From the NCBI GenBank assembly GCA_030426355.1, contig JAUHYQ010000001.1, forward strand, positions 248,001-312,000: a stretch of 64,000 nt of DNA, read 5' to 3'. Both the position numbers and the translations under genes were made by a program. Each line of letters starts with the position of its first letter. Position 1 is the stretch's first letter. The notes beneath the pieces were generated by a model. That model worked only from the letters and a program-made list of their open reading frames with translations, searched no databases and was not told where the DNA came from. Source of the DNA: Gammaproteobacteria bacterium (GTDB lineage Bacteria; Pseudomonadota; Gammaproteobacteria; Steroidobacterales; GCA-2729495). This document shows, in pieces, positions 13,275-46,179 of this stretch.

Positions 13275-14255
13275 CTACTCGGCGGGCTGCGGAGACCTCT
13301 CGCGCACATAGGTGTTAAAGGTCGAGTCGTTAGGCTGCCCCCATGAATCCAGCCCCGGCGGCTCAAGATAAGCGGCATGCTGCTGCATGGCTTTCTCCAT
13401 GAACGCCGGCGGAATGTCATCGGGCGAACCGAGCTTGGCCATGTTGGCGCGGAAAAACATATGGCCCTCGGCCTGCCCCATGAGCATCCACGGATACCAC
13501 GAACTGAGACGCGTCCAGGTACCACTGTAGGGAACCGAGGTCAGCTCAGGATTCTGCAAATCGGACGCCAGCACGGTGCGCTGAAACATTTCACTGATGC
13601 GCGTCATGGGCCCCGGCGACTCCACCGGCCATTCGTCGGGCTGCAATTCCGACGGCACTGACGCATGAATCTCAAAGGTAGAAAACACATAGTTACCGAT
13701 GGTTCGCCAGCGCGCCGGAAACGGTATCGAAAGCTCTGTACCTTCGATGTCCATTTTCAGGATTGGTGCCGTTTCAGCATTGACAGTCATGTTATGCATC
13801 GGGAAGGTTTCAACCAGTTTGTCGTTCAAGGGGTTCTTCCATTCATCGATGTATTGACCGGTGCGAAGATCCTTGTAAAAAGCCAATTCGCGATTGAATA
13901 CGCGAAAGCCCCCGCCATCGACGGGCTGACAGCGCATGGTGCCGATACCCTCAAGACCCAGTAACGGAATGATCTTGCTGGAGTCGCCCACCACTGAATA
14001 CACCGTGCCTTCAAACCAGCCGGTGACAAAATTATCCGGGTTGGTGTCCCCGAAAATGCGCGTAAAATGCAGCAGGCTCTCGGTCGGGTCATTCAAATTC
14101 AGATTCAGTGGCGCCATACCCGATGCAGCCTGCGGCTTTTCCGCCGAGGGGCTGCCGCACGCGGCCAGCACACCCGCGCCTCCGGCAACAACACCCAAAT
14201 TACGCAGCAAGTTTCTGCGGCTCATGATCTCCTGCGGATCCATATTGTTATTCAT
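13275..14255 (-). CDS. DUF1838 Tat lipoprotein (paralogue 2)
   Basis: 326 residues from ATG 14255 (a GTG at 14267 is an alternative). The signal reads SRRNLLRNLGVVAGGAGVLAAC: a twin-arginine motif followed by a lipobox, so an exported, lipid-anchored protein. DUF1838 features: LNLNDPTESLLHFTRIFG, WFEGTVYSVVGD, PLLGLEGIGTMRC, FYKDLRTGQYIDEWKNPLN and a C-terminal LSSWYPWMLMGQAEGHMF block. It stands head-to-head with a MarR regulator across two operator-like palindromes, and upstream of the flavin reductase-PCP_red gene, which suggests substrate-inducible expression. The family's chemistry is unknown. Confidence 0.8.
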   Translation of the reverse strand: MNNNMDPQEIMSRRNLLRNLGVVAGGAGVLAACGSPSAEKPQAASGMAPLNLNLNDPTESLLHFTRIFGDTNPDNFVTGWFEGTVYSVVGDSSKIIPLLGLEGIGTMRCQPVDGGGFRVFNRELAFYKDLRTGQYIDEWKNPLNDKLVETFPMHNMTVNAETAPILKMDIEGTELSIPFPARWRTIGNYVFSTFEIHASVPSELQPDEWPVESPGPMTRISEMFQRTVLASDLQNPELTSVPYSGTWTRLSSWYPWMLMGQAEGHMFFRANMAKLGSPDDIPPAFMEKAMQQHAAYLEPPGLDSWGQPNDSTFNTYVRERSPQPAE

Positions 14256-14296
14256 AGCGTCTGACACTCCGGCTCGGTTGCGACTTTCTCCAAGAT

Positions 14297-14349: not shown

Positions 14350-14811
14350 ATGCCCAGAATCAACCGAAAACAGGCTTTAAGCGATCTTTCTGTAGAGGTT
14401 TTCCGCCTGACGGCCAGACTAAACACGCTAGGTGACCGGTTGGCGGGTCAAGCCGGATTGAGCACGGCGCGATGGCAACTGCTGGGGGCCATTGCCGGGA
14501 GTCCAGACGGCGAATCGGTCGCCAAGATTGCGCGCCGCATGGGGCTGCAACGACAAAGCGTGCAACGCACAGCAGACGCGCTCGCCGATGCTGGTTTTAT
14601 CGAATACATTCCCAACCCCAACCATCGGCGCGCCAAGCTGGCAGTGCTGACCAAAGCCGGAGATAAGGCGCTGCAAACCCTGCATACGCTGCGCAACCAT
14701 TGGGCTGACAGCATCAAAGACGAGCTGGAACTCGGGCGACTGATTGAGGCAACCAAAACACTTACAAGGCTGCGCGCTTTGCTTGACCGCGACAACAACG
14801 GAAAAGGATGA
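14350..14811 (+). CDS. MarR family transcriptional regulator
   Basis: 153 residues. The central winged helix is clear: LSTARWQLLGAIAG, then VAKIARRMGLQRQSVQRTAD (recognition helix) and a wing containing NPNHRRAKLAVLT, where the NPxHRRA motif is typical of MarR. AGGA sits 6 nt before the ATG. Divergent from the DUF1838 lipoprotein gene with two palindromic operators between. Likely an autorepressor released by a small, possibly aromatic, ligand; the ligand is not known. Confidence 0.9.
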   Translation: MPRINRKQALSDLSVEVFRLTARLNTLGDRLAGQAGLSTARWQLLGAIAGSPDGESVAKIARRMGLQRQSVQRTADALADAGFIEYIPNPNHRRAKLAVLTKAGDKALQTLHTLRNHWADSIKDELELGRLIEATKTLTRLRALLDRDNNGKG

Positions 14812-14929: not shown

Positions 14930-15487
14930 TTGGCCACCACATTGCTCGAACAAGTTGCCGCCGGCGATCAAAGCGCTGTCGGCAAAGTTCTCGATCAATA
15001 CGGAGATCTGGTGTGGTCGCTGGCGCGCCGGTTTTTGGGCAACTCGCCTGAAGCCGAAGACGCCGTTCAGGATATTTTTATCGCGGTATGGTCAAGTGCC
15101 GACCGCTACAAACCCGAGCTGGCCAGCGAAGTCACCTTTATCGCCACCATCGCTCGCCGGCGATTGATTGACCGTCTGCGCAAAAACAGCCGCACACCGG
15201 ATTCGGAAACCTATGATGAAAGTATTGCCAGTCAAAATCCTGATTCAGTCAACCGAATAACCGAAAATGTCGAAGTCCAGAACGTTGTCCGGGTTCTTAA
15301 TGACATGCCGGCAGAGCATCGCGAGATACTTTCGCTTTCGGTCTATGAAGGCTACAGTCATTCAGAGATTGCCGATCGTCTCGATATCCCGCTCGGCACC
15401 GTCAAAACTCGCGTCCGGCGCGGACTGATTCACATACGCGAGCAACTCCGTCTGGAAGAGCGTGAAGCCAACGGAGGCGCATCATGA
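14930..15487 (+). CDS. ECF-type RNA polymerase sigma factor
   Basis: 185 residues. Region 2: YGDLVWSLARRFLGNSPEAEDAVQDIFIAVW; region 4: LNDMPAEHREILSLSVYEG then SEIADRLDIPLGTVKTRVRRGL, the helix-turn-helix for the -35 element. TTG 14930 is used as start because GGAG lies 9 nt upstream and the N-terminus then has normal ECF length. The stop overlaps the ATG of the next gene (ATGA), the usual coupling of an ECF factor with its anti-sigma factor. Neighbouring genes (B12 protein, exported SDR, DUF2878) are the kind found in light-induced regulons, suggesting this factor drives them. Confidence 0.88.
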   Translation: MATTLLEQVAAGDQSAVGKVLDQYGDLVWSLARRFLGNSPEAEDAVQDIFIAVWSSADRYKPELASEVTFIATIARRRLIDRLRKNSRTPDSETYDESIASQNPDSVNRITENVEVQNVVRVLNDMPAEHREILSLSVYEGYSHSEIADRLDIPLGTVKTRVRRGLIHIREQLRLEEREANGGAS

Positions 15488-15738
15488 GCAAACAACGCAA
15501 GAGTGACCGCGCTCGCCTTGAGGAACTGCTTATTGAACAGGCGATTAATGGCCTGAGTGATGCGCAACAGGCGGAGCTGGACTATTTAGACGGCTCAACT
15601 CATCACGAAAATCCATACATGGAAACTGCCGCACTGATTCAGCTCGGGCTGGCGGTCATGGATCAATCCGCCCACGGCGCATCCGCCATGCCCAGCGCGC
15701 TGCGCAGCAGATTGCAACGCCTGTCAACCGGAAACTAG
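15484..15738 (+). CDS. short anti-sigma-factor-like protein
   Basis: 84 residues, coupled to the ECF sigma gene by an ATGA overlap. The segment EELLIEQAINGLSDAQQAELD resembles the N-terminal sigma-binding helices of the RskA-type anti-sigma family. The zinc motif HxxxCxxC, the transmembrane helix and the periplasmic domain expected in a complete anti-sigma factor are all absent. It may be a soluble minimal anti-sigma factor, or a truncated remnant that still binds. Its last 15 bp overlap the convergent B12 gene. Confidence 0.6.
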   Translation: MSKQRKSDRARLEELLIEQAINGLSDAQQAELDYLDGSTHHENPYMETAALIQLGLAVMDQSAHGASAMPSALRSRLQRLSTGN

Positions 15739-16782
15739 AAAGGATGCGCTAAGGCGAATGGCTTCTCGCAGGTCGGGGGCATAGGCATCCGCGCCAATCT
15801 CGCGGGCCAGTTCCGGGGCTTCATCAAAAAGCGCGCCACCCACCAGCACCTTCACCGGCCGCTGGCAGTGCGCCCGAATGTGCTTCACTGCTGCCGCTGC
15901 CTGGTCCGCCTGAGTCGTCAATGTGGCCGTCAACGAGACCACGGCCGCACTGTAAACATCCAGGGCATCCGGCAAATCCCGCACAGGAACATCGGCACCC
16001 AGAAAAATACTGCGCCAACCCGAGAGGTAATACAGATCGCTAAGTGCGCGCATCCCTATATCGTGGGCGTTACCCGCCACGCAAGCTGTCACAACCGTCG
16101 CGCCGTTCTCGGCTGCTCGCGGAGCAACATAGGCGATAATGGCCATGGTTTTTTGGGTAGTCATGGAAACCAGATGCTCTTCCGCAACGCTCACGTCGCC
16201 GGCATGCCATAAACGCCCTATCTCTTTCTGCGCAGCAAGCAATACATCGAGATAGGCGTGCTCGGCCGACAAGCCCTGCTCCACCGCCTGCACGATGCGG
16301 CGCGAAGCCAATGCGCCGTTCCCGTCCAGGATGTCCTGCAAATAGGTCAACGCCAGACGTCCGCACTCATTGTCAGGGTCCAGTCCCGAGACGTCCGGAC
16401 CGGGCGCAGGTTTTTGCAATTCGCTGAGTGCGGCGTCCAAATAGCTTTGCACCGGTGTTGCTGCATTTGCCGGCAGGCTGTCGTTCAAAACTTCTTTCAG
16501 ACACTGCAAACTCAACCCCAACAGTTGCTCGTCCTGCTTGCGCGCAGCAAAAGTTTTGCGCGACCAGACCACGCGCTCACTGAACAGGCGCGACTCGCCG
16601 GCACCCAGCGCCGAGGACAACTCAATCAAACGCTGGGTAAGATGATCCTTCCAGGCTTCACGAGCACCCGCCTGGCTATTCAGGCTCGCGGCCTTTTCGG
16701 TCAGTAACGAGGCTGCCAACCCGGCGTAACCGGAGGCGCTCCGACGAATTATTTCGGCAGCAAATTCATGTGTACCGGTCAT
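15724..16782 (-). CDS. stand-alone cobalamin-binding protein with CarH-type W-x9-EH motif (paralogue 1)
   Basis: 352 residues. Residues ~140-215 are the helical B12-binding cap: EIGRLWHAGDVSVAEEHL places W192, nine residues, then E202-H203, the signature of adenosylcobalamin photoreceptor domains such as CarH/LitR. A Rossmann B12-binding domain follows with GNAHDIG (H240 as lower axial ligand candidate) and GADVP. No DNA-binding helix-turn-helix is present; instead residues 1-~130 form an uncharacterised helical N-domain shared with the paralogue at 39495. It follows the membrane protein gene by 15 bp with AAGGG as ribosome site. A light or B12 sensor acting through protein contacts, perhaps on the adjacent sigma/anti-sigma pair, is inferred. 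Confidence 0.8.
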   Translation of the reverse strand: MTGTHEFAAEIIRRSASGYAGLAASLLTEKAASLNSQAGAREAWKDHLTQRLIELSSALGAGESRLFSERVVWSRKTFAARKQDEQLLGLSLQCLKEVLNDSLPANAATPVQSYLDAALSELQKPAPGPDVSGLDPDNECGRLALTYLQDILDGNGALASRRIVQAVEQGLSAEHAYLDVLLAAQKEIGRLWHAGDVSVAEEHLVSMTTQKTMAIIAYVAPRAAENGATVVTACVAGNAHDIGMRALSDLYYLSGWRSIFLGADVPVRDLPDALDVYSAAVVSLTATLTTQADQAAAAVKHIRAHCQRPVKVLVGGALFDEAPELAREIGADAYAPDLREAIRLSASFLVSG

Positions 16783-16797
16783 TGCCCGCCCTTGTTA

Positions 16798-17508
16798 TTA
16801 ACTGGTCGCAATGCGTCCATGTGCCTTTCCAAAGCGGTTCACTGTCGCTGCAAACGAGAGCAACAACACCACCTCACCCGCATTACCGGGTGCCAGACCA
16901 AAGCCGCTCGGCGGAACCGATGCAGCAACAAACATAATAAGCGCACCGCTCATCAGCCACAGCCATCCGTGCCTTCTCCACAGCGCGATACCAAAAATCA
17001 GCGACACGAAATTACCGACGATGGACGGTATGGGCGGCCCTCCGCCGGTCGTCGCAAGCTGCCCCTCATAACAAAACATCGCGGGATTGACGTTCGTCGT
17101 ATAACGCACTACACCATTAAAACAGGCCGGTTCGAGCTCAAGCCCGATCAAGTGCGCAAGTGAGCCTTCAATAATGCCGCCAATCACCAGTATCCATACC
17201 GTAATCTGCCACGCCCTGCTTGCCGCCCAGCGAACGCCTCCGGCGACTGCCATCTGCGTCACCGCAATCATCATGAATGGCGTAGCCAGTGCATGCAGGG
17301 CGAATCTCGGCCAGCTCAGTGCTTCCAATACGGGACCAACCCCAATTGTCGACCCAAGTGCAATAATGCCGTTGTCGTAAACCAGGCCGGCAGCAATCAT
17401 GGCCACCAGTAACGCACCCGGCGCACGATACAATCGCGCCAGTCGCAAACACCAAATAAGCACCGCGAAGTGCACCAGAGCATAAACCGGGAAAAGATAG
17501 GCTGACAT
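16798..17508 (-). CDS. polytopic membrane protein of unknown function
   Basis: 236 residues from ATG 17508, with about seven hydrophobic helices (starting YLFPVYALVHFAVLIWCL). Between helices it has DNGIIALG and a Cys-containing periplasmic-type loop around LEPACFNG and PAMFCYEG. I do not recognise a named family. The frame continues open upstream to 18132 but this lies antisense to the SDR and lacks membrane or family features, so it is left out. It is the first gene of a two-gene unit with the B12-binding protein. Its start codon is only 3 bp from the divergent SDR start, so its promoter must lie in the SDR coding sequence. Confidence 0.65.
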   Translation of the reverse strand: MSAYLFPVYALVHFAVLIWCLRLARLYRAPGALLVAMIAAGLVYDNGIIALGSTIGVGPVLEALSWPRFALHALATPFMMIAVTQMAVAGGVRWAASRAWQITVWILVIGGIIEGSLAHLIGLELEPACFNGVVRYTTNVNPAMFCYEGQLATTGGGPPIPSIVGNFVSLIFGIALWRRHGWLWLMSGALIMFVAASVPPSGFGLAPGNAGEVVLLLSFAATVNRFGKAHGRIATS

Positions 17509-17511
17509 ATC

Positions 17512-18321
17512 ATGACGAGTATACCCAAAGCACTTGCCGTGTTCGCCACTCTGTTTTATCTGTCCGGCTGCTCCACCCTGCCTGACCAGCAAGCGGAACT
17601 GAGCACCGACCAGCCTACGGTATTGATTACCGGGGCAAACCGCGGCCTCGGGCTCGAATTTGCGCGGCAGTACGCCGATGCCGGCTGGAACGTTATTGCC
17701 ACCTGCCGGAACCCTGCCGCGGCGGTAGACCTGAAAACTCTGGCGCTTCGCCACGACCGCGTGCGCATCGAGAGGATGGATGTCACAAGCGATGCGCAAG
17801 TTGCAGCTGTTGCAGAGAAATATGCACAGCAACCCATTGATGTTTTGCTGAACAACGCGGGCATATACGGGGATCTGGAGTCGCAAACGCTTGGGAGTTT
17901 TGATTACGATGAACTTAAGAAAGTGTTGGATGTGAACACCATCGGCTCGCTGCGAGTAAGTGTTGCCTTTCTGGAGCAGGTACTTGCCAGCCAGCAGAAG
18001 AAAATCATTAGTCTGGGCGGGGGCATGGGTACCCCCAGCATTGGCCGTATGTTCGGTGGCCACTATTTTATGAAAATGAGCAAAGCCGCTCACCTCAGCG
18101 CGATGGGCACTTTGGTGGCAGACCTGCAGCACACCGGCGTAATGATCGTCATGATTTCCCCCGGCCGGGTCGATACGCAGCTGATGCGTGATTCCGGTTG
18201 GACGGGTAAATCGACACCGGCCGAGACTGCGGCAGCGGCAGTGATTACACTGATCGGACGGCTGGAACCCGACATGAACGGACGTTTGATCATGTTTAAC
18301 GGCAAAACCGTTCCTTGGTAG
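17512..18321 (+). CDS. SDR-family lipoprotein with catalytic Tyr replaced
   Basis: 269 residues. Starts with a lipoprotein signal (KALAVFATLFYLSGC, lipobox LSGC), then a Rossmann fold beginning VLITGANRGLGLEFARQ and NNAG. At the active site, where SDRs have YxxxK, it reads MKMSKAA: the Lys is kept and Met takes the Tyr position (a Tyr lies two residues earlier, in HYF). Either catalysis is altered or the protein is a non-enzymatic binding SDR. Membrane anchoring outside the cytoplasm is unusual for an NAD(P)-dependent fold. A paralogue at 59004 keeps the Tyr. Head-to-head with the membrane protein gene, within the putative light/B12 regulon. Confidence 0.72.
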   Translation: MTSIPKALAVFATLFYLSGCSTLPDQQAELSTDQPTVLITGANRGLGLEFARQYADAGWNVIATCRNPAAAVDLKTLALRHDRVRIERMDVTSDAQVAAVAEKYAQQPIDVLLNNAGIYGDLESQTLGSFDYDELKKVLDVNTIGSLRVSVAFLEQVLASQQKKIISLGGGMGTPSIGRMFGGHYFMKMSKAAHLSAMGTLVADLQHTGVMIVMISPGRVDTQLMRDSGWTGKSTPAETAAAAVITLIGRLEPDMNGRLIMFNGKTVPW

Positions 18322-18403
18322 TGCACGATTGGTTAGTAAAGCATGACAACGACAGGCAATCGGCTAGAATACTTGCGACCGCGGGAAGCAAATTGAGGCG
18401 CTT

Positions 18404-19708
18404 ATGCGTAACCCACTGATAGCCTTTTTACTGGCCGCCGTCATCGTTGTCGCCGGTTACTGGGCACTGAAGCGCGCCCCTGCTGAGATGGACGCGCAGG
18501 AGTTCAGTGCGGTTGGCGAACTGACGACTGACGGCAGCGCTGATGTGCTGCGCGTGACGAACGATGGCAATCTGCTATTACACACTAACATTGAAAGGCA
18601 AGCTATTGATGTTATTGATATAGCCTATCCCGAACAGCCTGAACATATTGGTCGAACCGCGCTGCCGGGGATGCCCACGGGATTGGCGATCAGCCGGGAC
18701 GGACTATGGGCATTGGTCACGCTGGATTTTTCCCTCACCGGATCTGAGCCCGCAACCGCCCACCCGCGCGTCCCGGGCGGACTGGCTATTATCAGCCTGG
18801 CCAAACCCGCCACCCCCGAACTGACCGAGATTATTGGCGTAGGTCACCAACCTAGCAGCGTTGTTGCCGCCAGCTCGGGAGCCGATCTGGTTGCAGTTAT
18901 TGCCATTGAAAACAGACCACAAATGGTACCTGTCGAGAGAACCGCAGACGATGCTGGGGTTGCAGCTGACACGAACGACGCACCCGAGTTCCTCGACATC
19001 AGCCTGCCCGGCAATGTGCAGGTAGTGACCTTTAACCCGACCCGGCAAAACAACTACCGGGTGGGCTCTGTCGATCTGAGCCCAGCTCGACTGACCGAGG
19101 CCAATCTGCAAAAACCAGACGATGCTCAGCCTGCGTTCGTAGCGCTTTCTCCGGATCAAAGCCTCGCTGCGGCCGCCCTGAGCGAGAACAGCGGGATCGA
19201 GATCTTTGATCCCTACTGGCTTGAGACCCGGCGCCTGTTCAGTACCGGCGAGCATAAGCCCTTGGCAGCCACCTTCACTTCCGATGGCAAAGTGCTGTTC
19301 AGCGCCGGCATATCGTCCACTTATCAATACAGCATAGCGGCGTGGACACTGGAGGGCGAGCCGGTCTGGCATGACACGGGCGGCTTGCGGCAAGCTGCTA
19401 TCGAAAGCGGTTTCATCATTGCTGATCCCGCTGGCAGTGAGCCCTTGGCGATATCCGGCATAGCCATCGAAAAATTCGGCGCGACCGACTTTGCCTTCGT
19501 GCTGCCCGAGGACGACGCCTTCATTGCCATTTACGATGTTTCCGTTCCGCTTGCACCGAAGCTGGTTCAGCTTATTGGCACACTTGAGTCACCCACGGGC
19601 ATAGTGCCCGTAGGTCGCCGTGGTTTGTTCGCGATAGCCGACAACGCGGGCGATATTCGACTATATCGCCATGCAGGCGCACCGGTAGAGCTGATAAATT
19701 CAAATTAA
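18404..19708 (+). CDS. membrane-anchored beta-propeller protein
   Basis: 434 residues with an N-terminal signal anchor (PLIAFLLAAVIVVAGYWAL) and then repeated beta-propeller-like strands: DVLRVTNDGNLLLHTN, GLAISRDGLWALVTL, FVALSPDQSLAAAAL, ATFTSDGKVLFSAG and GLFAIADNAGDIRLY. This spacing suggests a seven-bladed WD/YVTN-type propeller in the periplasm. No catalytic residues are recognisable. Follows the exported SDR by 82 bp on the same strand, and lies 119 bp before the small peptide gene; probably part of the same regulated group. Confidence 0.6.
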   Translation: MRNPLIAFLLAAVIVVAGYWALKRAPAEMDAQEFSAVGELTTDGSADVLRVTNDGNLLLHTNIERQAIDVIDIAYPEQPEHIGRTALPGMPTGLAISRDGLWALVTLDFSLTGSEPATAHPRVPGGLAIISLAKPATPELTEIIGVGHQPSSVVAASSGADLVAVIAIENRPQMVPVERTADDAGVAADTNDAPEFLDISLPGNVQVVTFNPTRQNNYRVGSVDLSPARLTEANLQKPDDAQPAFVALSPDQSLAAAALSENSGIEIFDPYWLETRRLFSTGEHKPLAATFTSDGKVLFSAGISSTYQYSIAAWTLEGEPVWHDTGGLRQAAIESGFIIADPAGSEPLAISGIAIEKFGATDFAFVLPEDDAFIAIYDVSVPLAPKLVQLIGTLESPTGIVPVGRRGLFAIADNAGDIRLYRHAGAPVELINSN

Positions 19709-19827
19709 TCAGTGGGTTAAATCGTTACAAATTGATACCAAATAACTCCATCCGGGCGCTATCGCAGCACGAATAACTTCCTGACACTTCACAATCAAGT
19801 GAACCCGATTGATACAGGAGTTTAAGC

Positions 19828-19941
19828 ATGGAAATTATCGTATCCGTATTGGCCGTTGCTATTGCAGGAAGCTGCCTGATCGCATTACTGCTGGCTGACG
19901 CCCGGGAAGCGCGTAAAAATAAAGAGAAGAATAAGTGCTGA
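19828..19941 (+). CDS. 37-residue single-span membrane peptide
   Basis: A short open frame with a very good ribosome site: AGGAG at 19816-19820, 7 nt before ATG 19828. It encodes one hydrophobic helix (IIVSVLAVAIAGSCLIALLL) followed by a strongly charged tail ending KNKEKNKC. The last 7 bp overlap the GTG start of the DUF2878 gene, so the two are probably translationally coupled. Not recognisable as a known peptide. The ribosome site, coupling and membrane helix argue that it is real rather than chance. Confidence 0.62.
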   Translation: MEIIVSVLAVAIAGSCLIALLLADAREARKNKEKNKC

Positions 19942-20486
19942 TTTTTTTTAATCTGTTCTTTTTTAAGGCTGTCTGGGCAGCCAGTCTCGCCGGTGTGGTG
20001 TTTGGCTACGAATGGTCGGGGCTGGTCATGCTGACATTCTTTGTCGCCTGGCATGCTCGCAAGTCGCCAACCGCGCGGGCAGATTTCTTGCTGGCAGCCA
20101 TCGCGATGAGTATCGGGCTGGTGCTTGACACCCTTTATATACGCGCTGGTTTAATTGTCTACGAGGGATCCACTCTCTGGCACAGCTTTGCCCCGCTCTG
20201 GATTCTGGGGCTGTGGGTCAATTTTGCATTAACCATGAATGGCTGCCTCGGCTGGTTACAACAACGACGCATGCTTGCCGGGTTACTGGCAGCTATTTGC
20301 GGCCCGGCATCCTATTATGGCGGCATTGCGTTAGGTACCGCCCGGGTTACGGGTGACCCCGCCATCCTGTTCATTGCTATTGGCCTTGCCTGGGCAGTCG
20401 CGGTGCCGCTGTTGTTAACCATGTCGGCGCATCTCGCGCTCACCTTTCATCCCGAACAATACAAGCCGCAGCACGGCACCGCCTGA
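19935..20486 (+). CDS. DUF2878 family integral membrane protein
   Basis: 183 residues, five or so transmembrane helices, with the DUF2878 hallmarks: NLFFFKAVWAASLAG, an internal SIGLVLDTLYIRAG and FAPLWILGLWVNFALTMN, and a GPASYYGG turn. GTG 19935 overlaps the preceding small peptide gene. DUF2878 members are commonly found in photolyase/LitR-type light-induced clusters with SDRs and lipoproteins of unknown role, which fits the ECF sigma and B12 protein upstream. No photolyase is present here. The biochemical function is unknown. Confidence 0.78.
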   Translation: MLIFFNLFFFKAVWAASLAGVVFGYEWSGLVMLTFFVAWHARKSPTARADFLLAAIAMSIGLVLDTLYIRAGLIVYEGSTLWHSFAPLWILGLWVNFALTMNGCLGWLQQRRMLAGLLAAICGPASYYGGIALGTARVTGDPAILFIAIGLAWAVAVPLLLTMSAHLALTFHPEQYKPQHGTA

Positions 20487-39382: not shown

Positions 39383-39494
39383 ACACAGTAGCCTCAGGCA
39401 CCCCCATCAGGCTTGGGCCAGCCGATTTACGCCGCATTGCGGCATTTGCATATAGTTGAATCCAATCTGCGGCAACGGCGAATAACCTTAGGTG

Positions 39495-40583
39495 ATGTTT
39501 GCCCCCAACCCTTTAGCCGCCAAAACACTGGAATCCAGCGCCATGGACCTGGCGGATGCTGCGTGCACGCTGTTTCTTGAGTCTGCTTTTAGTGGGCTTA
39601 ACAACAATGGGCAACAGCCAACCAAAGAATTGCACGCAGAATGGTCACATCACTTCCGCCAGCGGGTGCTGGAACTGTCGGCCGCGCTAGCGGCGGGTGA
39701 ATCAAGCCTGTTTACCTCCCGAGTGCGCTGGTCAAGGCAGGCAATGACGGCTCGCCTGCAATATAAAGTGCCGCTGGGAGAAACGCTCCACAGTCTACGG
39801 GCTGCCGTGCTCAACCAGTTACCGGGTGAACTTTCCACCGATGCGCTGGCCTGCATTGATCAGGCACTGCGAGAAAATCAGGATGATCTGCCGGCCATGC
39901 AGGTATCCCAGCTCGATCCTGCCAACCCCGAGCAACGGCTGGCCTTGCTGTATCTGCAGGATGCGCTGGAAGGCAACACGCGGCAAGCCATAGACACGGT
40001 GCTACAGGCTATCGATAACGGCCTTTCGCATGCGGATGCTATATGCCGCATTCTGCTTCCGGCGCAACAAGAAATCGGACACTTGTGGCACCTGGACCAC
40101 GTCACCATCGCAGAAGAGCATCTGGTCACAACTACAACGCAAAGACTGATGGCCGTCATCGCAGACCGCGCTCCGACAATGCCGTCCAATGGGAAAACAG
40201 CGGTGGCTGCCTCGGTATCCGGCAACGTCCACGACATCGGAATACGTGCCATTACCTACCTGCTTGAACTCCATGGTTGGCGGGCTATTTACCTGGGATC
40301 GGATGTCCCGAGGAATGACCTACCCGCAGCAGTGCACTTTTATCATGCCGATATTGCTCTACTGTCGATCGCGCTGAGCTCGCAACTGCCAAAACTGCAG
40401 CAAAGTATTGCCACTATTCGGCAACACTGCGACGCTGATATCAAAATCATGGTGGGCGGAAATGCCTTTTTCGATGCACCGGGCGCATGGCAAAAAATCG
40501 GTGCTGACGCATATGCGACGGATGCCGAGTCAGCCCTGATGCAAGCCGACAGTCTTATAACGACCCCGGCAACAAGGCATTAG
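39495..40583 (+). CDS. stand-alone cobalamin-binding protein with W-x9-EH motif (paralogue 2)
   Basis: 362 residues from ATG 39495, chosen because the N-terminus then aligns with the paralogue at 15724. Same architecture: a shared helical N-domain (EWSHHFRQRVLELSAALAAGES), a cobalamin cap with LWHLDHVTIAEEH giving W198-x9-E208-H209, and a Rossmann B12 domain with GNVHDIG (H246) and GSDVP. No DNA-binding domain. A 14-bp stem hairpin follows the stop codon. Two such proteins in one 25-kb span, each next to redox or oxygenase genes, suggest a small B12-based sensor family. Whether they bind AdoCbl or MeCbl is unknown. Confidence 0.8.
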   Translation: MFAPNPLAAKTLESSAMDLADAACTLFLESAFSGLNNNGQQPTKELHAEWSHHFRQRVLELSAALAAGESSLFTSRVRWSRQAMTARLQYKVPLGETLHSLRAAVLNQLPGELSTDALACIDQALRENQDDLPAMQVSQLDPANPEQRLALLYLQDALEGNTRQAIDTVLQAIDNGLSHADAICRILLPAQQEIGHLWHLDHVTIAEEHLVTTTTQRLMAVIADRAPTMPSNGKTAVAASVSGNVHDIGIRAITYLLELHGWRAIYLGSDVPRNDLPAAVHFYHADIALLSIALSSQLPKLQQSIATIRQHCDADIKIMVGGNAFFDAPGAWQKIGADAYATDAESALMQADSLITTPATRH

Positions 40584-42769: not shown

Positions 42770-43807
42770 ATGAGCCATGATGCGATTTCTTTTTACAGGG
42801 GCGTAACGGGGGCACCCATGTCATCTTTGTTTCTTAATGGACTGCTAAGCCAGTCAGCGGCAGCAACAACAACGCTGGAACAACTCGCTGCACGACAAAT
42901 CACCAAACCGCTGTTTGCCCCTGCCGGCGCCGGCGTCAGCCTGGACTTTGATAATCCTTACGACAACCTGTATGCCTTTGGAAAAATCTGGGCAGGCTAT
43001 GATGAACCGCAAGTTGGCGGTTTTCATGGCTTGATGTACGGACGTATTGGTGACCACCGACTTATCCCCTTGTTCGGCTACACCGGCACCGGCGTAATGC
43101 AGTCCAAAATTGATGATGAAGGAAACATGTGGATACGCGGCAAAGAAACGGGTTACTTCACGGATTTGGCCAGCGGCGACATTCTCGAAACCTGGGATAA
43201 CCCATGGACCGGCGAAACGGTTGATGTGGTCAATTTCTACAACCCCAACATGGGCGGCAAACTCACGGCAGAAATGCCCCGCTTTGCAATGGGTTCGGCA
43301 AAAGACGATGCCACGCTGATGAACGAGGGCACGCACAAGGAGCATTCGGGTGTAGTGCCCTTCATTCTGCCCTTCGACACATTCGGCGATGATTTGCTGC
43401 TCGCCTGGGACTACGCGCACGAGTACACCAACCCGGTCACCAAGGATAAGTGGCCCAAAGCCTGCACCGGCGACCGAATCAGCCCTTCTGAGCACTTTAC
43501 TTTCAGCATGTCGCTCGATCAGATGATGGATCGCAGCGAGGCTTCAATTCGTTATATGGCAGGTTTTAGCCGGCTATCGCAATGGTGGCCATGGATGCGC
43601 ATGGGAGAACACCAATACAAGGATGAAGTCTTGTTCGGCCGTATGTGGAGCCACAAAGGCCTGCCCGACTTCGGTGACGTGCCCCCCAAGGTGCTGGCCT
43701 ACATTGAAAAACACGCGCCTGACTACCTCACTGTCCCGGATCACTGGCCGCAAGTCATGCCCAAAGGAACCTGGGAAGCATTCGCTGAGGAAGTTCCGCC
43801 CGAGTAG
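42770..43807 (+). CDS. DUF1838 family protein (paralogue 3)
   Basis: 345 residues from ATG 42770; ATG 42818 with a nearby GGGGG is an alternative (329 residues). The DUF1838 core is clear: LDFDNPYDNLYAFGKIWAGYDE, FHGLMYGRIGD, PLFGYTGTGVMQ, FTDLASGDILETWDNPWTG, and the C-terminal FSRLSQWWPWMRMGEH block. Unlike the other three copies, no convincing twin-arginine signal is visible, so it may be cytoplasmic or have a degenerate export signal. Followed by an MFS gene 9 bp later, then another DUF1838 gene, forming a DUF1838-MFS-DUF1838 operon. Confidence 0.78.
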   Translation: MSHDAISFYRGVTGAPMSSLFLNGLLSQSAAATTTLEQLAARQITKPLFAPAGAGVSLDFDNPYDNLYAFGKIWAGYDEPQVGGFHGLMYGRIGDHRLIPLFGYTGTGVMQSKIDDEGNMWIRGKETGYFTDLASGDILETWDNPWTGETVDVVNFYNPNMGGKLTAEMPRFAMGSAKDDATLMNEGTHKEHSGVVPFILPFDTFGDDLLLAWDYAHEYTNPVTKDKWPKACTGDRISPSEHFTFSMSLDQMMDRSEASIRYMAGFSRLSQWWPWMRMGEHQYKDEVLFGRMWSHKGLPDFGDVPPKVLAYIEKHAPDYLTVPDHWPQVMPKGTWEAFAEEVPPE

Positions 43808-43816
43808 GCCACCCAC

Positions 43817-45121
43817 ATGGAACCGTCGCACAAATCCGCAGGGATAAAAATCGGCCCACTGTCATTCTCCCCGGGCATCACGCGCATCAATTTTGTCGCG
43901 CTGCTCGTTGCAGCCGTCGCGTCCAATACGCTGATGTCTTTCATAAACCTTATTCAGCCGTTATTGCTGGAAGAAATACTCCATATACCCGGCGATCGCC
44001 AGGGCACGGTAAGTGGCAATCTGACCTTTATAAGTGAGCTGTCCGCCCTGCTATTGCTGGGTTACTTTGGCGCCCTGTCCGACCGCACCGGCCGTCGCCC
44101 CATCGTTGTATTTGGCTTCGTGATGCTGGGTGTCGGCTATTTGCTTTATCCCTACATGCCGGACGAATACTACCTGTATGCCAGCCGGGCCGTTTTCGCA
44201 ATTGGCGTGGCCGGCGTATCGGGCATGACTGCCACCATACTGAATGACTACCCGCAGGAGCGTTCACGCGGGAAAATGATGGCGGTCGGCGGCGTCGCCA
44301 GCGGCGCGGGCGGCATCATGATGATGCTCATAGCCCGGCTGCCTGCCAGCCTGGAAGCATCGGGAATGTCGACAGAGCAAGCACTGCAGGCCACGCTGGG
44401 ATGCATGTTTGTTGCCTGCCTGCTGACAGCACTGTTCCTGCGCTATTTTCTAAGCGCTGTAAGGCCCGCAACGCAAAGTGAAAACCTGCCGTTACTAACC
44501 AAGCTCAAACTGGGGCTAACTGCCATGCGCCGACCCCGAATATCGGTTGCGTATGCATCGGCATTCGTGGCCCGCAGCGATTTCGTCGTGGTGGGTACAT
44601 TTTTCTTCTTGTGGTATGTCCAGACTGCCTCCGAAGCTGGCATGAGCAGCGCTGACGCAACCGCACGCGCCGGACTGATATTTGCTGTCATGCAGATATC
44701 GGCCCTCTGCTCGGCACCTTTGGTGGGCATACTTATCGACCGTATTGATCGCCTGGTTGCGCTCGCAATATGCATGGGGGTGGTGGCTTTCGGTTATACC
44801 GGCATGGGGCTCATTGAAGACCCGCAGAGCCCGGTTATCTGGTTTGCCGCGATCGCTGTAGGCTTCGGCATGATGAGCGGTTTTCTTGCCTCGCAGGCGC
44901 TGGTTGGTGAAGCAGCGGATCCGGAAATTCGTGGTGCGACGATCGGTCTTTTTGGCCTCTGCGGCGCAATCGGCATTCTGTTTGTAACCAGCACCGGTGG
45001 ATTCATCTATGATGAGTGGCTGCGCTCAGGGCCGTTTTTGCTGACCGGCGCCCTGGCAACACTGCTGACACTCGGCGCGTTGGTTGTCAAAAGTCGGGAA
45101 AAAGGGAACCTTAATAAATGA
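43817..45121 (+). CDS. MFS transporter between two DUF1838 genes
   Basis: 434 residues, twelve predicted transmembrane helices. The loop 2-3 motif GYFGALSDRTGRRPIVVFG is the MFS signature A; GATIGLFGLCGAIGILF and the C-terminal helices are also well formed. Its ATGA overlap with the next DUF1838 gene and 9-bp gap from the previous one show a tight operon. A transporter between two exported DUF1838 proteins suggests uptake or efflux of the compound they act on. Substrate unknown. Confidence 0.85.
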   Translation: MEPSHKSAGIKIGPLSFSPGITRINFVALLVAAVASNTLMSFINLIQPLLLEEILHIPGDRQGTVSGNLTFISELSALLLLGYFGALSDRTGRRPIVVFGFVMLGVGYLLYPYMPDEYYLYASRAVFAIGVAGVSGMTATILNDYPQERSRGKMMAVGGVASGAGGIMMMLIARLPASLEASGMSTEQALQATLGCMFVACLLTALFLRYFLSAVRPATQSENLPLLTKLKLGLTAMRRPRISVAYASAFVARSDFVVVGTFFFLWYVQTASEAGMSSADATARAGLIFAVMQISALCSAPLVGILIDRIDRLVALAICMGVVAFGYTGMGLIEDPQSPVIWFAAIAVGFGMMSGFLASQALVGEAADPEIRGATIGLFGLCGAIGILFVTSTGGFIYDEWLRSGPFLLTGALATLLTLGALVVKSREKGNLNK

Positions 45122-46179
45122 ACAGCAAATTTGTCACGCATCTCGTAAATACCACCAGTCGGCGTGATGTCCTCAAAGCATCACTGGCGCTCGGTGCCGG
45201 AGCCGCTTTGCCGATGACCGCTATGGGCAAATCCGCTAAGACAAGCCTCAATTACGCAGACCCGTACGACAACCTTTATGCGTTCGGCAAAATATGGTCG
45301 GCCTATGATCAGACAATCATCGGCGCTTTTCACGGCCTGATGTACGTGCGCATTCCCGGCAAGCGCATGATTCCGGTATTCGGCTATACCGGCACCGGGG
45401 CGCTGCAGGCGAAAATCGACGACAAGGGCTTACTGTGGATTAAATCCAGAGAAACCGGTTACTTCACGGACCTCAAAACCGGCGACATCCTCGAAACATG
45501 GGACAACCCGTTCACCGGGAAAACGGTAGAGGTATACCACTTTTACAATGACGTACTGACCGGACAAGTGGGCACCGAAATTCCAAAGTTTTTTATGGGT
45601 GAAATGGGCGACGCACCGACTCTGATGAATGAAGGCAGTGTTTTCCCGGACAAAAACGGCAAGTACCCGTTCATCCTGCCGTTCCAGCAATACGGCGATG
45701 ACATGATGCTGGCGTGGGACTACACCCACGATTACACCAACCCCGTAAATCCTGACGGCTGGCCACGATCATCAACCGGCCGGCGCATCACCCCCTCAGA
45801 ACACTTCACTTTTCAGGTTAATAAATCTGAACTGGAAGATCGCAGCCTGCCAACATGCCGGATGACCGCCGGCTTTTCGCGCGTATCAGAATGCTGGCCA
45901 TTCATGGAAATGGGCGGCACCGAATTCGCGGACGTCACCCTCTTCGGACGCATGCACAGCCACAAAGGGTTGCCGGGCTATCAGGAAGTACCGCCCAAGG
46001 TTTTAAACTACATTGAAAAACATGCACCCGAATTTCTGACCCTGCCGGATGAATGGGACATAGGCAACAAGCGTGTCGACACCTGGAAAGCCTATGCCCA
46101 AGACATAGCGCCGGAAAATCCGGACTACAAATGGGAGCCGAGCGACTTTAAGGTGCCATCGGGCAAAGGCGCACGCTAA
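45118..46179 (+). CDS. DUF1838 family protein with Tat signal (paralogue 4)
   Basis: 353 residues. Tat signal TSRRDVLKASLALGAGAALP, then the DUF1838 core: SLNYADPYDNLYAFGKIWSAYDQ, FHGLMYVRIPG, PVFGYTGTGALQAKID, FTDLKTGDILETWDNPFTG and FSRVSECWPFMEMGGTEF. It is closest in pattern to paralogue 3, with many identical blocks, so these two are likely duplicates. The stop lies 9 bp from the convergent cytochrome c gene. Exported, probably periplasmic; function unknown. Confidence 0.82.
   Translation: MNSKFVTHLVNTTSRRDVLKASLALGAGAALPMTAMGKSAKTSLNYADPYDNLYAFGKIWSAYDQTIIGAFHGLMYVRIPGKRMIPVFGYTGTGALQAKIDDKGLLWIKSRETGYFTDLKTGDILETWDNPFTGKTVEVYHFYNDVLTGQVGTEIPKFFMGEMGDAPTLMNEGSVFPDKNGKYPFILPFQQYGDDMMLAWDYTHDYTNPVNPDGWPRSSTGRRITPSEHFTFQVNKSELEDRSLPTCRMTAGFSRVSECWPFMEMGGTEFADVTLFGRMHSHKGLPGYQEVPPKVLNYIEKHAPEFLTLPDEWDIGNKRVDTWKAYAQDIAPENPDYKWEPSDFKVPSGKGAR

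Follow-up and report, generated by a model that had tools for sequence, protein, structure and literature searches.

A candidate light-responsive SigK/RskA-type sigma factor switch with photocobilin input in a gammaproteobacterial genome

B12 photoreceptors act as DNA-binding repressors, as antirepressors or through enzymes to which they are fused or which they contact. AerR (PpaA) is a B12 protein without a DNA-binding domain that binds a regulator, its partner being the repressor CrtJ/PpsR. Extracytoplasmic function (ECF) sigma factors that answer to light or singlet oxygen are known from the RpoE-ChrR and CarQ-CarR systems, whose target types (CFA synthase, photolyase) overlap with those met here. 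Apart from the candidate described below, we know of no case in which a B12 photoreceptor governs transcription by way of a sigma/anti-sigma pair. This candidate is encoded in a 64,000-nucleotide stretch (hereafter the window, with positions counted from its first letter) of a gammaproteobacterial genome of 2.8 Mb and 99.7% completeness (assembly GCA_030426355.1, contig JAUHYQ010000001.1, positions 248,001 to 312,000), where genes for an ECF sigma factor (SIG), an anti-sigma domain (ASD) and a B12-binding protein (CBD) adjoin one another. From the sequences we lean towards a light-responsive SigK/RskA-type sigma switch with a photocobilin as its input.

Two kinds of described systems come closest. 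Photocobilins, such as SasPcob (PDB 8J2W and 8J2X) and AbDPcob (8J2Y), join a B12 domain with the CarH signature to a phycobilisome-like globin; standalone forms have been described in which the B12 domain comes either first or last, and a photocobilin is reported to control a diguanylate cyclase by protein contact (PMC10979010). For the SigK/RskA pairs of Mycobacterium tuberculosis and Yersinia enterocolitica, a fragment of Yersinia RskA comprising residues 1-85 suffices to inhibit SigK, and natural RskA truncations (<150 residues) occur, more commonly with cysteine-less SigK (PMC7509140). In the mpt83-sigK-rskA cassette a fasciclin gene lies beside the sigma gene (PMC7509140, PMC9861118). 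The stimuli that induce the SigK/RskA system have been called obscure, and in M. kansasii fasciclin genes with putative SigK sites were raised by light (PMC9861118).

The window's locus resembles both kinds of system in part. CBD shares with photocobilins the CarH-signature B12 domain, the phycobilisome-like globin, the standalone form and an invariant equivalent of SasPcob Trp296. It differs in its N-terminal globin (an order mentioned as a group in PMC10979010), in the histidine at the Asp270 position, in a host without a PF01126 heme oxygenase and in its candidate partner, a sigma/anti-sigma pair. With SigK/RskA pairs the locus shares a cysteine-less sigma factor, RskA-type anti-sigma factors and fasciclin neighbors in relatives, and a truncated RskA form, which exists there too (PMC7509140), whereas here the truncated domain adjoins a B12 photoreceptor gene and no fasciclin gene was found in the surrounding 19 kb (locus L095). 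Like CarH/LitR, CBD carries the cobalamin light-chemistry signature; unlike them, it has no MerR DNA-binding domain, and direct DNA binding is not expected. Unlike the anti-sigma factors of RpoE-ChrR and CarQ-CarR, ASD has no zinc anti-sigma domain, and the candidate input here is a B12 photoreceptor. AerR/PpaA gives only a weak match to CBD (7TE2, E 0.026). Each part is of a known kind and the combination appears new as far as the literature searched, where we found no B12 photoreceptor with a SigK/RskA-type pair; two articles that could mention one, on photoglobins (PMC8717448) and on ECF classification, lay outside that search. The core features are as follows.

14930-15487, + strand: SIG, SigK-like ECF sigma factor, 185 residues, without cysteine
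15484-15738, + strand: ASD, 84-residue soluble anti-sigma domain of truncated RskA type, with a 4-base overlap with SIG
15724-16782, - strand: CBD, predicted photocobilin-type B12 photoreceptor, 352 residues (PF02310, 6.6e-16; PF02607, 3.2e-13)
16408-16782, - strand: photoglobin (bilin-type globin) domain of CBD, residues 1-125
15763-16344, - strand: B12-binding domain of CBD (helical cap and Rossmann), residues 147-340, with GxxW, EH, GxxH and GxxxP

CBD is, judged from its sequence and structural model, a photocobilin-type B12 photoreceptor with a globin ahead of the B12 domain. Among PDB sequences it matched best three photocobilin entries (8J2W, 8J2X and 8J2Y) and 8JBS, a CarH-like B12 domain. 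When a profile of 44 N-terminal domains was compared with 177,635 PDB sequences, the top four were three photocobilin globins and an allophycocyanin subunit (E 2.1e-7 for 8J2W, 2.2e-7 for 8J2X, 0.0027 for 8J2Y and 0.048 for allophycocyanin), 8J2W and 8J2X being one protein and not independent matches. The Pfam family Phycobilisome matched five of the 44 domains, at best with 3.1e-5. An AlphaFold2 model of CBD built from three sequences had a mean pLDDT of 77.6, with residues 228-255 below 50. Its N-terminal domain has five helices and aligned with allophycocyanin (Z 17.4, rmsd 2.2, 124 residues) and the 8J2W_B globin (Z 16.8, rmsd 2.5, 120 residues), both above the caution level for helical bundles of Z ~13. 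The best 50 structure matches of this domain were all phycobiliproteins and photocobilin, and a Foldseek search with the full model returned a match list filled by B12 domains. A first-pass annotation of this DNA had described the N-terminal part as an unknown helical domain; the profile matches and the globin structure alignment rule this out. The same annotation had noted that the B12 protein lacks a MerR domain, and indeed no helix-turn-helix (HTH) family matched CBD, which rules out DNA binding of the CarH/LitR type.

The residues expected of a light-responsive B12 domain are largely conserved. Four signature elements have been named for such domains (PMC11796333), and CBD has all of them, as do 34 of 45 aligned rows by strict count (44 rows for the N-terminal domain; the partial B12 matches L078, L090 and L092 were dropped, and L093 fell below the score cut). 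W192, E202, H240, G262 and P266 are invariant in all 45 rows, H203 is kept in 41 and replaced by arginine in four, and G237 is kept in 37 and varies in eight. The W-x9-EH signature reported in the first-pass annotation is present as W192-x9-E202-H203. We expect adenosylcobalamin (AdoCbl) chemistry for CBD; the host has a PduO-type adenosyltransferase, and PF02572 is absent from its genome.

Residues related to bilin binding gave a mixed picture. In SasPcob, Trp296 bridges bilin and corrin (PMC10979010), and its equivalent in CBD, W73, is invariant in all 45 rows (SasPcob numbering was matched by hand via Trp61, Glu71-His72 and His108). The position of SasPcob Asp270, a key bilin residue, is H47 in CBD and histidine in 32 of the 45 rows; AbPcob, a weak binder of bilin (biliverdin, BV), also carries histidine there (PMC10979010). 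A PF01126 match occurred in two of 40 genomes of the family, one of them above cut-off, and the host has no heme oxygenase of this family, which rules out such an enzyme as its source of bilin. Because of this lack and the replacement of the bilin-contact aspartate, bilin use is doubtful, and we regard binding of bilin by the CBD globin as unlikely.

Homology to longer proteins identifies ASD, as far as sequence allows, as the sigma-binding domain of an RskA-type anti-sigma factor without anchor or outer sensor. A domain homologous to ASD follows the sigma gene in 24 of 26 sigma loci from relatives (one at 1e-4; two cut by contig ends), and in 16 of those loci it runs on to ~250-300 residues with a hydrophobic segment. 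ASD corresponds to the N-terminal part of these long anti-sigma factors (profile i-E down to 3e-29 in relatives), and RskA_C was found in five of the seven long ones tested, so a truncated RskA type is indicated. ASD itself, with 84 residues, no hydrophobic segment and no RskA_C, is not a full-length membrane-anchored RskA. The assignment rests on this homology: an AlphaFold2 model of ASD from two sequences was poor (pLDDT 67) with no useful fold match, and its profile met RskA 4NQW_B in the PDB only at E 0.95, not in the top row. The domain contains no cysteine and hence no Hx3Cx2C zinc motif, which rules out a ChrR-type zinc anti-sigma factor. The earlier description of the 84-residue protein as anti-sigma-like can therefore be kept and made more specific.

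SIG matched Sigma70_r2 (E 1.8e-20) and Sigma70_r4_2 (E 4.1e-14) in Pfam. Among NCBIfam models PRK12519 ranked first and SigK second (1.8e-37), both under their cut-offs, and among PDB sequences SigW, RpoE/SigE and SigL ranked above SigK. We call SIG SigK-like because of the RskA-type anti-sigma factors and, in some relatives, fasciclin genes beside the sigma gene. Fasciclin genes were near sigma in eight of 25 sigma-only loci and three of 12 linked loci (two by Pfam).

The neighborhood of sigma and photoreceptor genes recurs across relatives. Among 48 photoreceptor loci (L048-L095), SIG lies less than 1 kb from CBD in nine (L060, L061, L063, L064, L073, L075, L085, L091 and the window's L095), which belong to genera g1 (including the window), g3, g7, g9, g34 and g38 of families f1 and f6. 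In genus g32, ASD adjoins CBD at a contig end (L080), and a locus from the sigma search (L163) has SIG-ASD convergent with a partial CBD; in L070 the sigma gene is 4.7 kb from CBD. The remaining loci had no such sigma gene in the stretch examined, some stretches being shortened by contig ends. Gene orders vary: CBD is convergent with sigma-ASD in g1, g32 and g38, convergent without ASD in g34, divergent in g7 (L063) and g9, and placed before sigma in g3 and g7 (L064). The first-pass annotation had named a B12 gene not conserved next to the sigma pair as a ground for rejecting its idea; the linkage is kept in distant relatives. In L060, L061, L075 and L085 the SigK-like sigma gene adjoins the photocobilin gene with no recognisable anti-sigma gene alongside. 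In two g8 loci, L058 (6465-7118, - strand) and L059 (9043-9786, + strand), an ECF-like gene other than this sigma gene (27 and 30 bits) lies ~1.3 and 0.5 kb from CBD, respectively; we excluded it from the sigma counts.

Co-occurrence and the form of the anti-sigma domain follow the same pattern. Across 40 genomes of the family, 19 had both CBD and SIG, two CBD only, two SIG only and 17 neither (cut-offs 1e-40 for CBD and 1e-45 for SIG; Fisher 5e-7, kinship ignored), and one of the SIG-only genomes (G033) carries a CBD fragment at 1.4e-38. ASD beside CBD was short, without a hydrophobic tail, in seven of seven cases (among them the window's own and one that a contig end truncates), compared with five of 21 elsewhere (Fisher 0.0007, weakened by kinship to 0.02 when counted by genus). 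L138 and L152, truncated at contig ends, and L155 and L158, where ASD was not found, do not enter this count. In a class-wide search, five of 369 genomes, including the window's own, had the photoreceptor; the other four had no sigma gene in the stretches examined, one of which was just 5 kb. In other families of the class, the photocobilin-like genes of L103, L104 and L105 adjoin histidine kinase genes, one with DUF3369.

A shared promoter-like motif precedes several gene types in these loci. As a starting pattern we used CCATCC-N-CGAAT, which we take to be SigK-like as in M. tuberculosis. Two elements of this kind lie in the window.

19748-19774, + strand: SigK-type promoter-like element CCATCC-N16-CGAAT, conserved in the congeneric L091/L006
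39458-39483, + strand: promoter-like element GAATCC-N15-CGAAT, before a second photocobilin gene

The former pattern matches the window once, where 0.16 matches were expected and 14 of 100 shuffles gave a match as well; the element precedes the genes for a 37-residue peptide and a DUF2878 protein and is kept in the relative while spacer and flanks vary. The latter is likewise a single match (0.32 expected). The pattern GAATCC-N15-17-CGAA(T/A/C), whose GAATCC form was first noticed in a relaxed scan and then tested on loci that include the ones where it was noticed, some of these being close relatives, matched 42 times across 79 loci, where permuted patterns averaged 3.4 matches and never exceeded 15; for 31 of the 42, a labelled gene followed within 300 bases.

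A relaxed core, ATCC-N15-17-CGAA(T/A/C), was scored within 160 bases before the domain start. It was found before nine of 14 fasciclin genes, 13 of 48 distinct CBD upstream stretches, both folE genes (2/2) and six of 11 photolyase genes, with permuted patterns averaging under 0.2 in every group. The strict pattern had matched one of the 11 photolyase genes, and the relaxed core giving six was picked after viewing those sequences. Lower numbers came from FAD oxidase (3/11), DUF4397 (2/4) and DUF427 (1/6) genes, and no match from CMAS (CFA synthase; 0/12), DUF1365 (0/11), SDR (0/15), DUF1295 (0/7), NADb10 (0/7), RND (0/5), histidine kinase (0/3), SnoaL (0/2), lipocalin-like (0/2) or DUF2878 (0/3) genes, the DUF2878 element of the window falling outside the 160 bases scored. 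A whole-genome search in three genomes exceeded a reversed-pattern control, but this control differs in dinucleotides, most matches lack a placement relative to genes and we did not use the excess. In the congeneric species, a SigK-type element lies 20 bases before a photolyase domain (L210, G001:C135:1763-1789), and the window's genome has no PF00875. Given the link of the sigma gene to fasciclin genes, we think it probable that SIG reads the ATCC-N15-17-CGAA motif.

Genes around the photoreceptor also suggest a light response. In genera g2 and g8, CBD is surrounded by varying sets of CFA synthase, DUF1365, FAD oxidase, SDR, DUF1295 or DUF427 genes, with a similar set in the single g4 genome, and in g7 one locus (L064) unites CBD, SIG, ASD, folE, CFA synthase, DUF1365 and FAD oxidase. 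In Pseudomonas mendocina the genes induced by light include SDR, FAD oxidase, photolyase and folE (PMC9758184), and in Vibrio light induces a CFA synthase gene (PMC5241685). The conserved linkage, the co-occurrence and the motif before fasciclin, photoreceptor, GTP cyclohydrolase (folE) and photolyase genes together make a sigma regulon for light response likely.

The mechanism we propose builds on the domain identities, the truncation of ASD, the conserved linkage and co-occurrence and the shared promoter-like motif, all of which can be read from the sequences. SIG would be held by the soluble ASD, a presumed remnant of a membrane-anchored RskA-type factor that lacks anchor and outer sensor. 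The cytoplasmic photocobilin CBD would be the replacement input, loaded with AdoCbl in the dark. Light would break the Co-C bond and alter both helical cap and oligomer, and the lit CBD would then free sigma by contacting ASD or its complex with sigma. Free sigma would transcribe from ATCC-N15-17-CGAA promoters, in their GAATCC or CCATCC forms, with photoreceptor genes, fasciclin, folE, photolyase where present and, in the window, DUF2878 as targets. A path from photocobilin through soluble ASD to sigma would best join these facts, and sensing through the sigma/anti-sigma pair rather than by direct DNA binding, as the first-pass annotation had suggested, seems the most natural reading of the sequences. 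The parts of this scheme differ in strength. That light is the signal we hold to be highly probable, and protein contact between CBD and the sigma pair is favored by a small degree, while the chances that light activates rather than represses are even. The evolutionary component, in which loss of anchor and outer sensor left a membrane RskA-type factor under the control of a B12 photoreceptor and, where ASD is missing, the photoreceptor itself holds sigma, is tentative.

Several observations weigh against this scheme. The EH element reads ER in the four arginine rows, two of which are sigma-linked (L073 and L085), and no PF01126 heme oxygenase was found in the host genome, other heme oxygenase types not having been searched for. 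The relaxed core lies within 160 bases upstream of just three of 35 sigma genes, and in the window the full motif was not found upstream of SIG, of CBD and its upstream neighbor POLY, or of SDR. On the sigma tree (the sigma and photoreceptor trees are both quick trees), an independent-pairs test has just two well-supported pairs and no power. The single g4 genome has CBD and no sigma gene at cut-off. In g2 and g8, CBD is not beside this sigma gene, which often has a full-length membrane anti-sigma factor (eight of 12 long), so CBD cannot have replaced that factor in the same way there. Finally, no anti-sigma domain was found beside sigma in g3, g9 and g34, and action through ASD therefore cannot be general.

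These points bear on other explanations. If CBD were only a target, a sigma factor driven by another signal would induce it together with stress genes, and CBD would act elsewhere. The relaxed motif before 13 of 48 CBD upstream stretches, many far from sigma, would fit, as would the persistence of membrane-type anti-sigma factors in g2 and g8. Sensors of sigma systems are commonly autoregulated, however, so a motif before CBD does not separate the two readings, and a mere target would leave the repeated linkage in two families and the soluble anti-sigma domain beside CBD unexplained; we consider this explanation unlikely, if a serious one. An arrangement in which CBD is itself an anti-sigma or co-anti-sigma factor that binds sigma directly, with ASD an auxiliary lost in some lineages, would account for the CBD and SIG neighbors of g3, g9 and g34, and in a whole-genome ASD search G010 yielded nothing, while G011, G039 and G155 gave no better than E 0.05, 0.13 and 0.52, respectively. 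A diverged ASD could escape such detection, though, no sigma-binding motif was recognised in CBD and ASD is kept in other lineages, and we judge this arrangement improbable. A neighborhood without function, in which a non-photoactive B12 or globin sensor lies near sigma by chance, would agree with the ER rows and with the histidine and missing PF01126 that speak against bilin use. The presence of all four light-signature elements in CBD, the shared motif, the co-occurrence and the neighbors known from light regulons (CFA synthase, FAD oxidase, SDR and folE; compare PMC9758184) make it very improbable.

If the proposed photocobilin-driven switch is correct, it would be a new route for light into transcription, from a B12 photoreceptor to a sigma/anti-sigma output, and would give a SigK-type system a defined signal. 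Its small soluble parts (84, 185 and 352 residues) would suit optogenetics, and thanks to the predicted promoter motif and the small number of genes the model lends itself to testing in a laboratory host.

The wider block contains the remaining features below. All open reading frames listed for it in the first-pass annotation are present as described, including CBD convergent with the anti-sigma gene, which it overlaps by 15 bases.

14350-14811, + strand: MarR-type regulator directly upstream of SIG, a kept neighbor in relatives
~16798-17508, - strand: POLY, polytopic membrane protein upstream of CBD in the same direction, without Pfam match
17512-18321, + strand: SDR (PF00106, 9.6e-28), with a lipoprotein-like signal judged by eye
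18404-19708, + strand: PROP, propeller-like, with an N-terminal hydrophobic segment (by eye), conserved in L091
19828-19941, + strand: 37-residue membrane peptide, overlapping the DUF2878 start
19935-20486, + strand: DUF2878 membrane protein (1.6e-32)
39492-40583, + strand: second photocobilin paralogue, 363 residues, with no sigma gene in the surrounding 19 kb

The link between the genes of the block is real and beyond chance, because gene order is conserved in a congeneric species (JABDLC010000023.1, isolate SS_bin_65; L006/L091). There the B12 protein is 66% identical to CBD, and the order MarR, SIG, ASD, CBD, POLY, PROP, 37-residue open reading frame, DUF2878 and kinase is kept, SDR being replaced by a DUF4397 gene and one that looks lipocalin-like by eye. 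Of the earlier statement that the module lacks a photolyase or HTH regulator, the photolyase part agrees with the genome-wide absence of PF00875; the other part fails on the MarR gene, which is kept upstream of SIG in both relatives that show that side (L091 and L138). The PROP assignment is weak, its top NCBIfam match reaching 31 bits against a cut-off of 300, and apart from the window's own copy a POLY homologue occurs only in L091 among the loci compared. The divergent start codons of POLY and SDR are three bases apart (17508-17512), with no room for promoters between them.

Further genes of the window and of photocobilin loci elsewhere are worth recording. A DUF1838 gene (Pfam 1.6e-37) at 13275-14267 adjoins the module and has two homologues at 42770-43807 and 45118-46179. 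Upstream of the second photocobilin gene are, by Pfam, a CBS-domain gene and two genes for Rieske oxygenases. In several genera, photocobilin genes stand beside RND efflux pump genes (L005/L003, in the window's own genome at C4:479125-480183, and L072, L074, L079, L081, L070 and L106). These neighbors were recognised as ACR_tran by Pfam in L074 and L106 and by homology in the others, and most of the loci form one paralogue branch; control of efflux by light or B12 is possible there.

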